A DNA stretch of 33,296 bases. Source: Clostridiales bacterium (GTDB taxonomy: Bacteria > Bacillota > Clostridia > Lachnospirales > CAG-274). The notes beneath the pieces are model-generated. The model was not told where the DNA came from. It was given only the letters and a program-made list of their open reading frames with translations, and made no database searches. Position numbers and translations under genes: made by a program. The DNA lies in contig JAJQFU010000107.1 in assembly GCA_021200955.1 (NCBI GenBank), positions 1 through 33,296 on the forward strand, written 5' to 3'. Position 1 is the stretch's first letter, and every line of letters starts with the position of its first letter. Shown one piece after another: positions 12,143-20,139 of this stretch.

Positions 12143-14095
12143 ATGAATAAAATACATTTGCTTGACAACAGCTTAATAAATAAAATTGCGGCTGGAGAGG
12201 TTATAGAGCGTCCGGCTTCCGTTGTAAAGGAGCTTGTGGAAAACTCCGTTGACGCCGGGGCGACCTCGATTACAGTCACAATGAAGGACGGAGGAACAAG
12301 CCTTATTTCCGTTTCAGACAACGGCTGCGGAATAGACAAAGACGACGTTAAACAGGCTTTTCTTCGGCATGCCACAAGTAAGCTTAACGCCTTTGACGAC
12401 CTTTTGGATATTGCCACATTAGGTTTCAGAGGTGAAGCCCTGGCAAGTATCGCAAGCGTTTCTCAGCTTGAAATGTCTACCCGAACAGAAGTCTCCGAAA
12501 TCGGCACTCTAATAAGAATAAACGGCGGTGAAGCTGAGGATATTAAGGAAACGGGCTGTCCCGTCGGCACAACAATTACAGTCAAAAATCTTTTCTACAA
12601 TACTCCTGCAAGGAAAAAGTTTTTGAAGAGAAATTCAGTCGAGGGAACATACATTGCAGAAGCTGTTTCAAGAATTGCCTTAGGGCACCCCGAAATTGCC
12701 TTTAAGCTTATAAACAACGGCACTGCCGTAATTCAGACAAGCGGTCGGGGCGACCTTAAAACAGCGGCTTTTGCCATAATGGGCAGAGACGCCGTCAAAG
12801 CCTTTATTCCCTTAAGCTTTGAAAAAGAGGGCTGGCTGCTTTCCGGCTTTATTGCCGCTCCTCAAATTTCAAGGGGCAACAGAAGCTATGAATATTTTTA
12901 TTTAAACGGAAGATATGTTAAAAGCGAGCCTTTGACAAAGGGGGCTGAAGAGGGCTTTAAGGGCTATATGATGGGCGGAAGATTTCCCGTGTTTATAATG
13001 AATATAAAATCGCCCTCAGGCTGTGTTGACGTAAATGTTCACCCCACAAAGCTTGAAGTCAGGTTTAACAATGACGGCTTTATTTTTGACTTTATCTGCG
13101 AGGGGGTTAAAAATGCCCTTAAGTCTCAAAATCTTATTCCCGAAGAAGGGCTTCAAAAGCCTAATTTTTCACAGGTTACGGGCATAAAATCACCCAAAGC
13201 GGAGGAAATAACCGTTGACCTTGAAGAAATTCTGAGAAAGGCTGAAAGCAAGAACACAGAAGAGGTTAAGACGGAAGAGACGAAGGCGGTCGCTCAAAAG
13301 CCGGAGGTTAAGTCTCCCGAGCCGACCTTTACGGTTCGTGAGCACAAGGCGGAATATGACGTTACTCCCGCCGAACCTATGAAAATGATGCTTAATGAAG
13401 CAGCCCCTGAAAAGGAGTTTAAGCCCTTAAGAGAAATCATAGGAGAAATTAAGGATAAGGAGCTTAAGAGGGGCAATGTTGAAAAGACGACCGCATATCC
13501 CCCCAAAAAGCCCTTTTTCACTAACTATAAAATTATAGGTCAGGTGTTTTATACCTACTGGCTTGTGGAGCAGTCCGACAAGCTTTATATTATAGACCAG
13601 CACGCCGCCCACGAAAAGGTTCTTTATGAGAAATTCACAAAAAGCCTTAAAGAGGGCAAGGCTGCTTCTCAGCTTTTGTTGGAGCCTGTGACTGTAACAC
13701 TGACTATGAAAGAGAAGTATATTATAGAAGAAAACAGAGAGCTTTTTGAAAAAACAGGCTTTGTTTTGGAAATGTCGGGCAAAAACACTGTGTCGATTAA
13801 AGCCGTTCCCTTTATTTTTGACGGAACTTCAAACCCTGTGTTCTTTTTGGATATTGTAGACAGCTTGGGAGAGGGAAGCCTTAAAGACGCCTTTGAGCTT
13901 AAGCGTGACAAGGTGGCTACAATGAGCTGTAAGGCGGCTGTTAAGGGAAACCATGCCTTAAGCTTTGCGGAAGCCTCGTCTCTTATTAAGGATTTGTTGA
14001 AGCTTGAAAACCCCTTTAACTGCCCCCACGGCAGACCTACTGTAATAAAAATATCAAAATATGAAATAGAAAAGATGTTCAAACGGATCATTTAA
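12143..14095 (+). CDS. mutL: DNA mismatch repair endonuclease MutL, 650 aa
   Basis: The N-terminal GHKL ATPase has AAGEVIERPASVVKELVEN (residues 16-34), DNGCGI (58-63) and GFRGEAL (94-100). A low-complexity linker rich in Glu, Lys and Pro (about 345-440) joins the C-terminal dimerisation domain. That domain keeps the endonuclease signature DQHAAHEKVLYE (485-496), matching DQHA(X)2E(X)4E, and the CPHGRP motif (627-632). MutL here is therefore predicted to nick DNA itself, as expected for bacteria lacking MutH. The start lies one base after the mutS stop, with only a weak ribosome-binding site, which suggests translational coupling. Confidence 0.96.
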   Translation: MNKIHLLDNSLINKIAAGEVIERPASVVKELVENSVDAGATSITVTMKDGGTSLISVSDNGCGIDKDDVKQAFLRHATSKLNAFDDLLDIATLGFRGEALASIASVSQLEMSTRTEVSEIGTLIRINGGEAEDIKETGCPVGTTITVKNLFYNTPARKKFLKRNSVEGTYIAEAVSRIALGHPEIAFKLINNGTAVIQTSGRGDLKTAAFAIMGRDAVKAFIPLSFEKEGWLLSGFIAAPQISRGNRSYEYFYLNGRYVKSEPLTKGAEEGFKGYMMGGRFPVFIMNIKSPSGCVDVNVHPTKLEVRFNNDGFIFDFICEGVKNALKSQNLIPEEGLQKPNFSQVTGIKSPKAEEITVDLEEILRKAESKNTEEVKTEETKAVAQKPEVKSPEPTFTVREHKAEYDVTPAEPMKMMLNEAAPEKEFKPLREIIGEIKDKELKRGNVEKTTAYPPKKPFFTNYKIIGQVFYTYWLVEQSDKLYIIDQHAAHEKVLYEKFTKSLKEGKAASQLLLEPVTVTLTMKEKYIIEENRELFEKTGFVLEMSGKNTVSIKAVPFIFDGTSNPVFFLDIVDSLGEGSLKDAFELKRDKVATMSCKAAVKGNHALSFAEASSLIKDLLKLENPFNCPHGRPTVIKISKYEIEKMFKRII

Positions 14096-14108
14096 TGAGG
14101 TGATTTTA

Positions 14109-14738
14109 TTGTTTAATGAGTTGATTTCATTGTATTTCGGCAGCTTACATCCTTTTATTAAGAGAGCAGTTTGCGGAATTATCGTTATAACGGTTCACGG
14201 CTTTTTGACAGCACTTGTGTCAAGCCGTCTCGGCGATGATGTTCCCAAACGTCAGGGAATGGTTACCCTTAACCCCAAAAAGCACTTTGAGCCTTTGGGC
14301 TTTATAATTTACGTTTTGTTCGGTTACGGCTGGGGGCAGCCCGTCAGAACAAGCTCATTCGGCTATAAAAACAAAAAATCAGGCTGCGTTCTGACGGCTC
14401 TTCTGCCTATATTGGCTGATATTGCTTTGGGCTATTTGCTTTTTTTTGTTTTTGATCCGGGTAATTTCGTCAGAACAAATGTGTATTTAAGCGGATTTTT
14501 GAAAAGCTTAGGCTATCACTTCGCCTGTTACGGCATATATAATATTATACCCGTTTATCCTTTAAACGGTCAAAAGCTTCTTTTGGGATTTCTGCCTGCC
14601 AATAAGATTATGAAGTATAACGAAAGCGAAAAAATATTACAGCTTATTCTTGTATTTTTAATCTTTATGAGTATAATTCCCAGGGTTGTGTCGAAGATTT
14701 TCTATCTGCCCGTATTTGCTTTTGTGGTTACGGGGTGA
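14109..14738 (+). CDS. M50 (site-2 protease-like) membrane protein, catalytic motifs degenerate, 209 aa
   Basis: This integral membrane protein resembles the short M50 / YwhC-type site-2 protease family. Several family landmarks are recognisable: RLGDDVPKRQG, LNPKKHFEPLG, GWGQPVR, and NIIPVYPLNG. The zinc and catalytic positions are changed, however. Where the family has HExxH this protein reads HGFLT (residues 30-34), so the Glu and second His are gone. The AGP motif is absent, and PLDG reads PLNG (151-154), removing the third zinc ligand. It is probably a non-proteolytic relative. A TTG start at 14109 is preferred because GAGGTGA lies just upstream; the in-frame GTG at 14100 is part of that site. 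It lies between mutL and scpA. Confidence 0.75.
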   Translation: MFNELISLYFGSLHPFIKRAVCGIIVITVHGFLTALVSSRLGDDVPKRQGMVTLNPKKHFEPLGFIIYVLFGYGWGQPVRTSSFGYKNKKSGCVLTALLPILADIALGYLLFFVFDPGNFVRTNVYLSGFLKSLGYHFACYGIYNIIPVYPLNGQKLLLGFLPANKIMKYNESEKILQLILVFLIFMSIIPRVVSKIFYLPVFAFVVTG

Positions 14739-14742
14739 TTTT

Positions 14743-15525
14743 ATGGACAGTATAACCTTTAAGCTTGAAAATCTTAACTTCGAAGGACCTCTTGACCTAC
14801 TGCTTAAGCTTATCGAAAAGCATAAAATCGACATTTACAATATTCCCATAGCGGAACTGACAGACAGCTATTTACAATATTTGGGGCTTCTGAAAGAGGT
14901 CAACGCCGACAACCTAAGCGAATTTATACTTATGGCGGCGACCCTTCTCGAAATAAAGTCCAGAATGCTGCTGCCTGTTCCCGAGGACGACGAAGAGGGA
15001 GAGGGCGACCCAAGAGAGGAGCTTGTGAGACGGCTTCTTGAATATAAGCAGTTTAAAGAAGCGGCTGAAGAGCTTGACGTAAGGCAAAAAGAGGGGCTTT
15101 TTCCTGTTTTCAAAGCACCTGACAATGATGTAAAGAAGGAAGCTCTTAAGGGAGCGGATGAGGAAAAGGATATTTCCGACATTTTAAACGGAGTTACCGC
15201 CGATATGCTTTACAAAGCCTTTTTAGACGTTATGAAGCGGAAAGAGGTCAGGGTTGACAAAATAAGAAGCTCCTTCGATTCTGTGGTTAAAGACCCCTTT
15301 ACCATAGAAGAAAAAACGGAGCATATTAAAAATGTTTTGAGTGTTAAAAATGAAATAGAATTTACGGAGCTTTTCGGCAAAAGGGCGGGAAAATCCGAAA
15401 CGGTTGTTACATTTATGGCTCTTTTGGAGCTTATAAAGGGAAAATACCTTGAAGCCTTTCAGGACACAATTTTCGGAAGGATTATCATAAGACGAAAGGA
15501 GACGGCGGCAGATGAAGCTCAGTGA
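14743..15525 (+). CDS. scpA: Segregation and condensation protein ScpA, 260 aa
   Basis: ScpA is the kleisin subunit that bridges the SMC heads in the bacterial condensin complex. The N-terminus carries the family signature FEGPLDLLLKLIEKHKIDIYN, followed by AATLLEIKSRMLLP near residue 75. An acidic linker follows, and a C-terminal winged-helix region around 200-255 would bind the SMC head. The length matches the family. The ATG at 14743 is chosen because GGGGTGA lies just before it; reading further upstream would only add residues overlapping the M50-like gene. scpB overlaps its last 14 bases. SMC itself is not in the window. Confidence 0.95.
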   Translation: MDSITFKLENLNFEGPLDLLLKLIEKHKIDIYNIPIAELTDSYLQYLGLLKEVNADNLSEFILMAATLLEIKSRMLLPVPEDDEEGEGDPREELVRRLLEYKQFKEAAEELDVRQKEGLFPVFKAPDNDVKKEALKGADEEKDISDILNGVTADMLYKAFLDVMKRKEVRVDKIRSSFDSVVKDPFTIEEKTEHIKNVLSVKNEIEFTELFGKRAGKSETVVTFMALLELIKGKYLEAFQDTIFGRIIIRRKETAADEAQ

Positions 15526-16078
15526 AAAGGAAGCGGCAGTTGAAGCAATATTGTTTGCCGCAGGGGAGCCTGTTGAAATAGAGTCCATAGCAGCAGTTAT
15601 AGACGAGGACAAGGCAACGGCTGAAAGTCTCTGCGAAAGCCTTGCCATAAAATATAACTGCGAAAAAAGAGGCATTAACATAATTAAGCTTGAAAACAGC
15701 TATCAAATGTGCACAAACAGGCGTTTTTTCGACACTGTCAGCAAGCTTTTCAGACAGCCCAAAAGAAAGAGCCTGTCACAGGCGGTTCTTGAGGTTTTGG
15801 CAATTATTGCCTACAAACAGCCCATAACCAAAACGGAAATTGAAGAAATAAGGGGTATAAACAGCGACCACGCCGTAAACCGCCTTGTTGAATATGACCT
15901 TGTGGAAGAAAAAGGGCGGAAGAGCACTCCAGGCAGACCTATTTTGTTCGGAACAACCGATGAATTTCTGCGTGTGTTCGGCTTTGAGTCCTCGGAAAAG
16001 CTTCCGGAGCTTAAAGCACCGGGGGTTGACGAAATAACCGAAGCGGAAAGGGAAATCGATAGTAAAATTACGGTATAA
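15512..16078 (+). CDS. scpB: Segregation and condensation protein ScpB, 188 aa
   Basis: ScpB dimers bind the ScpA linker in the SMC-ScpAB condensin. Two winged-helix domains can be seen: residues 1-80, with VEAILFAAGEPV, and 85-165, with LAIIAYKQPITKTEIEEIRG and the glycine-containing TPGRPILFGTTDEFL segment. All are hallmarks of the family, and the length is normal. The start overlaps scpA by 14 bases and has AAGGAG about 10 bases upstream. The C-terminal 25 residues are acidic and probably disordered. Confidence 0.95.
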   Translation: MKLSEKEAAVEAILFAAGEPVEIESIAAVIDEDKATAESLCESLAIKYNCEKRGINIIKLENSYQMCTNRRFFDTVSKLFRQPKRKSLSQAVLEVLAIIAYKQPITKTEIEEIRGINSDHAVNRLVEYDLVEEKGRKSTPGRPILFGTTDEFLRVFGFESSEKLPELKAPGVDEITEAEREIDSKITV

Positions 16079-18129: not shown

Positions 18130-19167
18130 GTGCTTTGCCGATTTTTTTTGTTAAAAAAGGGCTTCAAAAAGAGAATTTTTCTTTTTTTATTTATTATTGT
18201 TTCTGTTTTGGGGGCAGTTTATACCGAAAGTTATTTTTCGGTAAGCGCCGCTTATGCCGACAGGCGTGAGCTGATGGTAAGCGGCGAGGTTGTGGGGGTA
18301 AAAATAGATATGGACGGCGTTATGGTTTTGGGGGTAGGGTCTGTTGCCTGTTCGGGCGGCAGCAAAGAGCCTTCCGCCGGGGTTTTCAAAGCCGGGGACT
18401 ATCTGCTATATGCAAATGATGAAAAAATCGAAAACAAAGAGGGGCTTATGAAAGCTGTTGAAGAAAGCTCGGGAGAGGAAATTGCCTTCGGTGTTTTAAG
18501 AGGGGGAAAGGAGCTTAATATTAATGTACCCCCCTGTCTTTCCGCCGAGGGCGACTATAAGCTTGGAATTTGGGTCAGAGACTCAACACAGGGCTTGGGT
18601 ACACTGACCTTTTATGACCCGGAAAGCCAAAGAATAGGGGCTTTGGGTCATGGAATAACGGACGTTGATACGGGAAAGCTTGCCAGCGTAAGCGGCGGTG
18701 AAATCTGTCGGGCGAATATAGGGGCTATAGTCAAGGGCAAAAAGGGAACAGCCGGGGAAATGCTTGGGGACATTGACTTTAACGATAAATTAGGGACTGT
18801 GGAGGAAAACGTAAAAGCCGGAGTTTTCGGCACTGCTCAAAGCAATAAAATTTCGGGAAAAATGTACCCTGTAGGCAGCAAAAACGAAATCCGTATAGGC
18901 GAAGCTGAAATTTTGTCAGGCGTCAGCGGCGAGGTCAGAGAATATTCAGCGGTTATTGAAGGCTTTAACCCCTTTTCGGGCGACAGCTCAAAATGTATGG
19001 TTATAAAAATAACCGATGAAGAGCTGATTAGCAAGACAGGAGGAATAATTCAGGGTATGAGCGGTTCACCGATAATTCAGGACGGCAAAATTATAGGGGC
19101 TGTTACCCACGTTTTTCTCAATAATCCTCAAAAGGGTTACGGTATTTTTATTGAAAATATGCTTTAA
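18130..19167 (+). CDS. spoIVB: SpoIVB signalling serine protease (S55), 345 aa
   Basis: SpoIVB is secreted from the forespore and cleaves SpoIVFA, triggering pro-sigma-K processing in the mother cell. A membrane anchor/signal segment spans about residues 14-42. A PDZ domain follows (roughly 65-135). The S55 protease domain has H174 in GALGHGI and S311 in GMSGSPI as probable catalytic residues, and ends in THVFLNNPQKGYGIFIE. The start is GTG at 18130, eight bases after GGGAGGT. An overlapping ATG at 18128 is in another frame and stops after eight codons. It is shorter than the Bacillus protein (about 425 residues) but complete in its domains. It is followed by spo0A, a widely conserved order. 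Confidence 0.93.
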   Translation: MLCRFFLLKKGFKKRIFLFLFIIVSVLGAVYTESYFSVSAAYADRRELMVSGEVVGVKIDMDGVMVLGVGSVACSGGSKEPSAGVFKAGDYLLYANDEKIENKEGLMKAVEESSGEEIAFGVLRGGKELNINVPPCLSAEGDYKLGIWVRDSTQGLGTLTFYDPESQRIGALGHGITDVDTGKLASVSGGEICRANIGAIVKGKKGTAGEMLGDIDFNDKLGTVEENVKAGVFGTAQSNKISGKMYPVGSKNEIRIGEAEILSGVSGEVREYSAVIEGFNPFSGDSSKCMVIKITDEELISKTGGIIQGMSGSPIIQDGKIIGAVTHVFLNNPQKGYGIFIENML

Positions 19168-19386: not shown

Positions 19387-20139
19387 ATGAAGATTTTTAT
19401 TTTGGATTCAAACTTCTCAGAGCTTGAAAGATTTTTTTCATCATCAAACCGTTTTGAAGTTGCAGGCTGTGCAGATAACGGAAATGACGGCTTAAAGGGA
19501 ATTAACGAAACTAAACCCGATGTTGTGGTTATGGATCTTTTCTTAAGCGGTTTAGACGGCTTCGGTGTTTTGAAAAAGCTTGACACAAGCTCCTGTAAAA
19601 TCGTTGTTACTACAGCTAAGTGTTCTGACGAAATTATTTCAAGGTGCTTTTCTATGGGTGCTTCATATGTTCTCATTAAGCCCTACGACTTTGATATTTT
19701 GGCAGAGAGAATCTGCGATATTGCAGATGCAGAAAAGAATGTCGTTAAAGAAAACAAGGGCTTTTCGGCTGCTCCCGTTTCAGGCTTCGCTCCCGTTTCT
19801 TTTGCAGACGCCGGCACAAAGTCAGTCACCACTCTCCTTCGCGACATTGGCATCACCCCCAACCTTAAGGGCTTCAGATATCTGCGCCTTGCTATTTCAA
19901 TGGTTGTTGAAAACGAAGCTGTTATCGAAACCGTAACAAAGGTTATTTACCCCGGTATCGCCAAAGAGTTTAAAACAACTCCCGTAAGAGCCGAAAGAGC
20001 CATAAGACACGCTATCGAAACCGCTTGGGAAAGAGACGGCGGCGAAACCATGAAAAAGGTTTTCAATCTGCCCAACAATATTAAAAGACCCACAAACAGC
20101 GAATTTATAGGTCTTGCTGCAGAATATCTTAAAGCTTAA
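19387..20139 (+). CDS. spo0A: Sporulation master response regulator Spo0A, 250 aa
   Basis: Spo0A is the phosphorylation-controlled transcription factor that commits the cell to sporulation. The receiver domain (1-115) has phosphoacceptor D50 in VVVMDLFLSGLDGFG, T76 and K98 in VLIKPYD. The DNA-binding effector domain (about 143-250) contains the diagnostic TTLLRDIGITPNLKGFRYLR and the recognition-helix region TTPVRAERAIRHAIETAW. One oddity is that the N-terminal acidic pair, DD in Bacillus, reads D7-S8, so the residue that normally contacts Mg2+ is Ser. The ATG follows AAAGGAG, and a sigma-A-type promoter lies at 19252-19280. Identity is certain from the effector domain and the spoIVB neighbour. 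Confidence 0.96.
   Translation: MKIFILDSNFSELERFFSSSNRFEVAGCADNGNDGLKGINETKPDVVVMDLFLSGLDGFGVLKKLDTSSCKIVVTTAKCSDEIISRCFSMGASYVLIKPYDFDILAERICDIADAEKNVVKENKGFSAAPVSGFAPVSFADAGTKSVTTLLRDIGITPNLKGFRYLRLAISMVVENEAVIETVTKVIYPGIAKEFKTTPVRAERAIRHAIETAWERDGGETMKKVFNLPNNIKRPTNSEFIGLAAEYLKA

Follow-up and report, generated by a model that had tools for sequence, protein, structure and literature searches.

A putative S2P-family (M50) pseudoprotease maintained directly upstream of scpA in a Clostridiales bacterium and its relatives

The gene at positions 14109..14738 of the window (the whole 33,296-nt stretch of DNA that was analysed) encodes what is by homology a divergent relative of the S2P (M50) proteases. 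Its catalytic residues are lost and the gene is under selection, the combination by which a pseudoprotease is recognized. As an earlier, sequence-only reading of this DNA had proposed, it is, to judge from its sequence, maintained and not decaying, given that 45 of 48 family genomes conserve it, that there are signs of purifying selection, and that the scaffold is retained. It probably has a job that needs no cutting. We think it likely that it is kept for a non-hydrolytic function and descends from an active M50 protease that already lay directly upstream of scpA, with a product that folds as an S2P core and holds a transmembrane client, uncut, by means of a beta-loop.

The gene starts with TTG and encodes 209 amino acids (an in-frame GTG at 14100 is an alternative start); its frame is open throughout, to a TGA at 14736-14738. 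A ribosome-binding-like GAGGTGA, read from the sequence at 14097..14103, falls between the stop of the immediate upstream neighbor mutL (12143..14095) and the start codon, the GAGG (14097-14100) being 8 nt 5′ of the TTG. The immediate downstream neighbor, scpA (14743..15525), begins with an ATG 4 nt after the pseudo-S2P stop and is followed by scpB (15512..16078); all of these features are on the forward strand. The description of an intact gene with normal ribosome binding and tight spacing thus stands. Pfam identifies MutS, MutL, ScpA, ScpB, and a D-Ala-D-Ala carboxypeptidase among the neighbors, while promoter and terminator scans of the region gave no usable signal. The 4-nt spacing, together with a ribosome-binding-like GGGGTGA for scpA that overlaps the 3′ end of the pseudo-S2P gene, might suggest that the gene persists solely as a leader that couples translation of scpA. 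The 3′ end would suffice for that, however, and amino-acid constraint spans the whole protein; the chance that this is the explanation seems next to negligible.

S2Ps carry HExxH and LDG motifs, mutations in which are described as reducing activity (PMC10202637). The window protein keeps the family framework (RLGDDVPKRQG, LNPKKHFEPLG, NIIPVYPLNG), but has neither HExxH nor the aspartate of LDG/PDG: in an alignment with 19 active relatives, all with HExxH, that position is taken by HGFLT (residues 30-34; 14196..14210), and PLNG (residues 151-154; 14559..14570) replaces PLDG, the profile aligning this motif with the P-M-D-G of mjS2P (3b4r). In the AGP loop, P-I (residues 100-101; 14406..14411) replaces the G-P; G100 and P101 are found in 19/19 active relatives and P100 in all 58 rows of the dead clade described below. 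GMVTLNP (residues 50-56; 14256..14276) is retained, and by position would be the membrane-reentrant beta-loop. These motifs read as first reported. The further statement that all zinc-ligand motifs are altered holds for the motifs but not for every ligand: one of three, the first histidine (His30), is kept, while the second His has become Thr34 and the Asp has become Asn153; the catalytic Glu (residue 31) is also gone. An HGF[LF]T form recurs in 9/9 genomes of the genus, so HGFLT is not a chance feature of one sequence.

Single-sequence Pfam comparison places the window protein below threshold for PF02163 (Peptidase_M50; E 0.0015, 18.4 bits, cut-off 27.2), and its assignment to M50 is therefore based on profile comparison with the 19 active relatives (hhalign probability 100, E 3.5e-57). 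PF02163 is matched at E<=0.01 by 28 of 33 dead-clade members (best 5.7e-9), and a dead-clade profile finds 3b4r (E 1.4e-6) and SpoIVFB (E 0.018), with similarity over the C-terminal half. NCBIfam has no family for the window protein and only scattered single matches for the dead clade, and a phmmer search of PDB with the single window sequence gave a chance-level match only. An AlphaFold2 model from four sequences has a mean pLDDT of 37.7; the beta-loop motif is retained in the sequence.

A single-protein search found a homologue in 80 of 97 related genomes. Within the window's own GTDB-type family (f1), none of the 45 copies has HExxH, 31 lack all three zinc ligands, and 18 lack the Glu; the same search found no active second copy in this family. 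Its genera differ in how far the motifs have changed: the window's genus (g1) has HGFLT or HGFFT with PLNG/PLSG; g6 has MGFxK/R or TGFTK with PLFG and similar; g4, g5, g7, g9, and g10 have FExxK; and g11, g3, and g8 have HEFTK with PLCG, CEFTK, and HSLIK, respectively. The three family genomes without the gene (G009, G027, and G031) also lack a ScpA match, a joint absence that may reflect an assembly gap covering neighboring genes.

In an 82-row alignment (from which L032-L035 were omitted, their genomes being already represented by L003, L004, and L006; L099 and L100 repeat known genes), 19 rows have H-E-x-x-H plus the Asp and are here called active; 63 do not. Of the latter, 58, from 8 families of the order, form a single group, the dead clade, in trees from which the four catalytic columns had been removed (SH-aLRT 90, 85, and 88 in three trees). 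No member has the second His (43 Lys, 5 Arg, 9 Thr, 1 Val); the first His is kept in 23, the Glu in 38, and the Asp in 8, leaving no zinc ligand in 33 rows, one in 19, and two in 6. A second dead group (SH-aLRT 98), whose 7 rows come from f14, from f22, and from scpA loci in f21 and f4, has HExxK throughout, and there are single or small losses in f7 (HGFFQ), f29 (REFVR), and f36/f69 (RGFxx, RGYAQ). Over 153 rows the active/dead label changes at least 4 times, with 3 changes forced by strongly supported branches; these are “quick” trees with several long branches, which makes the exact number unsure. Given an active ancestral state, suggested by the motif common to RseP and mjS2P, such changes would be losses of catalysis.

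A class-wide search gave 135 matches in 131 of 147 genomes, from which 68 loci were read (28 best new, 20 low-scoring, and 20 mid-scoring); outside the order, therefore, the balance of active to dead and of linked to unlinked loci does not reflect random sampling. Four of its loci in f36 and f69 (L129, L130, L131, L139) show RGFFQ, RGFCE, RGFCQ, and RGYAQ at the HExxH position, keep the LDG/FDG Asp, and have no same-strand scpA alongside. Family f29 has one dead (REFVR) and one active (HEFSH) copy, L157 and L168, both at the scpA position. Two genomes, G064 (f18) and G065 (f19), each have a dead scpA-linked copy (L065; L060) and an active copy away from scpA (L084; L077), perhaps a sign that the scpA-linked copy was free to change while an active paralogue stood in reserve.

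Several dead-clade members have Lys or Arg for the second His but are otherwise unchanged at the H, the E, and sometimes the D (HEFTR/MDC, HEASK/PLDG), which raises the question of whether these proteins are still proteases with an altered metal site or other ligands; His59 and Glu61 of the window protein are conserved as well. Against this, 31 of the 45 copies in the window's family lack every ligand and 18 lack the Glu. His59 and the acidic residue at 61 are conserved to an equal degree in active members, and so do not constitute a new metal site; nor was any newly conserved set of His, Cys, Asp, or Glu giving three ligands found in the dead clade. An altered but working protease is very unlikely.

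What is conserved in the dead clade is the scaffold, whose residues are invariant or nearly so over the 58 rows. In a comparison of column entropies, uncorrected for the breadth of the two sets and using one row per genus (23 dead and 63 active genera, the active set being the broader), the catalytic columns average 1.66 bits in the dead set vs. 0.00 in the active, and the AGP/N columns 1.74 vs. 0.38; columns 50-56, equivalent to the beta-loop, have 0.80 vs. 0.44, and columns 59-64 have 0.87 vs. 0.86. G42-D43 is invariant in both sets. P164, E174, K175, and Q178 are more highly conserved in the dead clade than in the actives, part of which may be explained by sampling. Pairwise dN/dS (Nei-Gojobori) is 0.06-0.36 in 15 dead pairs, with a median (0.136) that agrees with the 0.105-0.154 of 4 active pairs; these are rough values, since dS exceeds 1 in many pairs and some pairs share rows. 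For the window gene, dN/dS is 0.097 against its nearest relative (L032) and 0.343 against L033, the second value indicating looser constraint than on scpA or mutL.

Could this be a protease gene on its way out, its frame open by chance? The catalytic columns are indeed free to drift, scpA is mostly the slower-evolving of the two genes (its dN/dS is the lower in nearly all pairs), and the pseudo-S2P gene is absent together with scpA from 3 of 48 family genomes. Yet the frame is open in all sampled genera of the family (in-frame stops in the G016, G038, and G057 matches are at the match ends, outside the ORF), and dN/dS is well below 1. With no broken copies and a conserved scaffold, decay was rejected as extremely unlikely, leaving a maintained pseudoprotease as the preferred reading.

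Counting a row as linked when a same-strand scpA starts no more than 400 nt downstream, 52 of the 58 dead-clade rows are scpA-linked, with a median gap of 7 nt (13 and 9 nt in the linked active rows). Of the exceptions, one is at a contig end, in two from the window's family the gap widens to 790 and 975 nt, and the remaining three, from f11, f16, and f19, have no scpA nearby. In the window's family scpA is directly downstream in 42 of 45 loci and mutL is present in 44 of 45, in agreement with the proposal that the gene is fixed between the two; no mutL was found in the loci of other families within the stretch examined. No copy with intact HExxH, which would have spoken against a fixed loss here, occurs at this locus in the genus or family. 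Farther out, such copies do occur: active rows with HExxH and the Asp ligand are directly upstream of scpA in 10 of 19 cases in the same order (f3, f8, f13, f20, and f24), as are 40 of 63 active rows from other orders, a set partly chosen by score. With intact S2Ps at the same spot in five other families and in other orders, the scpA-S2P neighborhood predates the catalytic loss, and has outlived it.

Gene order raises the possibility that the protein works with SMC-ScpAB at the membrane, perhaps anchoring or regulating condensin there. More broadly, the order-wide clade, arising by one or more catalytic losses at an ancient scpA-linked locus, might be a membrane-embedded, non-proteolytic partner of SMC-ScpAB or of its synthesis. 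Counting dead-clade and active rows separately, relatives are directly 5′ of scpA in 52/58 and 50/82; and among 17 genomes without a single-protein match, 11 have ScpA, 3 of them with a highly diverged dead homologue directly upstream (L088, L090, and L092, from f4 and f21). This evidence is all of one kind, gene order. Moreover, no relative was detected upstream of scpA in 8 genomes (f2, f6, and f9) that have it, the joint loss of the gene and scpA from three family genomes may come from an assembly gap spanning neighboring genes, and no paper linking S2P and condensin was found in the open-access literature. A special role beside condensin and mismatch-repair genes, as envisaged in the sequence-only reading, is not borne out: the scpA linkage predates the loss and the mutL linkage was seen only in the window's family, which leaves a condensin role unproven. 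We regard it as unlikely; if true, it would connect chromosome segregation with the scaffold of an intramembrane protease. The three diverged copies were missed by the single-sequence search and have HELPK/FDI (L088), HEVPK/FNI (L090), and HELIK/FDL (L092).

Other neighbors suggest sporulation, with the protein in the place of SpoIVFB: SpoIVB (18130-19167) and Spo0A (19387-20139) are in the window, and a PF02163 search of this 99% complete genome finds RseP as its sole M50, with no SpoIVFB-type member. Among the 97 genomes, though, G000, G001, and G007, all of one genus, are the only ones with SpoIVB close to the gene; f22 includes genomes (G068, G081, and G092) that retain a dead copy but have no SpoIVB match; and a dead protease cannot process pro-sigma-K. 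A sporulation link, unsupported beyond this genus, was rejected as highly improbable. G000 has a sigma-K-like match (C155; 274 bits, below cut-off), along with SpoIVB and no SpoIVFB-type M50.

Returning to a pseudo-S2P with a non-hydrolytic function, its ancestor would have been an active M50 protease already directly 5′ of scpA, the adjacency to scpAB being simply inherited. The S2P core may still fold in the membrane. The membrane-reentrant beta-loop of RseP is described as binding substrate directly and as a conserved feature of S2P groups I and III (PMC4597795); the retained stretch (GxLTLNP...KHFEPIG), which by position and motif would be its equivalent, might grip a transmembrane client in an extended state and leave it uncut, and the protein could then serve a membrane partner as holdase, decoy, or regulator. 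More speculatively, the Lys or Arg found at the second-His position in 48 of 58 rows could supply the positive charge that zinc would have provided opposite the remaining Glu; the window's genus is further along, having lost both Glu and Lys.

Pseudoproteases of the S2P family are already known, from plants: EGY3 has been called the only pseudoenzyme of the family (PMC9355673). Neither a bacterial example nor an scpA-S2P link was found in the open-access literature searched, and a 2024 review of metallopeptidase pseudoenzymes does not mention M50, S2P, or site-2 (PMC11266112). Homology-based annotation could easily call such genes proteases, which would mislead. At this one locus related bacteria have either an active or a dead S2P, and intermediate forms run from HExxK/PLDG to HGFLT/PLNG. 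This offers a direct test of which parts of an S2P matter beyond catalysis, and of whether its long-standing linkage to scpA has any significance.

Among known systems, the window protein resembles those of the mjS2P (MJ0392, 3b4r) and SpoIVFB type in profile over the C-terminal half, but has lost their HExxH, AGP, and LDG. Its close active relatives have the GD, NP, and P-x-x-G framework in common with it and, in other families, the locus as well. The genome's own RseP (L001; so identified by TIGR00054) is also an M50, but a larger, active-type protein with intact HEGGH and LDG, encoded at another locus. The iRhoms, which are rhomboid pseudoproteases, are unrelated to S2Ps in fold and family. 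They nevertheless offer a parallel, as intramembrane proteases turned non-cutting regulators (PMC3149277), and as pseudoenzymes that have shown what such scaffolds do without cutting; for S2Ps, a 2022 paper names just one, from a plant. That protein, the chloroplast EGY3, is confined to plants (PMC9355673), but by its description, as distinct from direct sequence comparison, it is like the clade reported here an S2P homologue without an active site that is conserved over a large clade.
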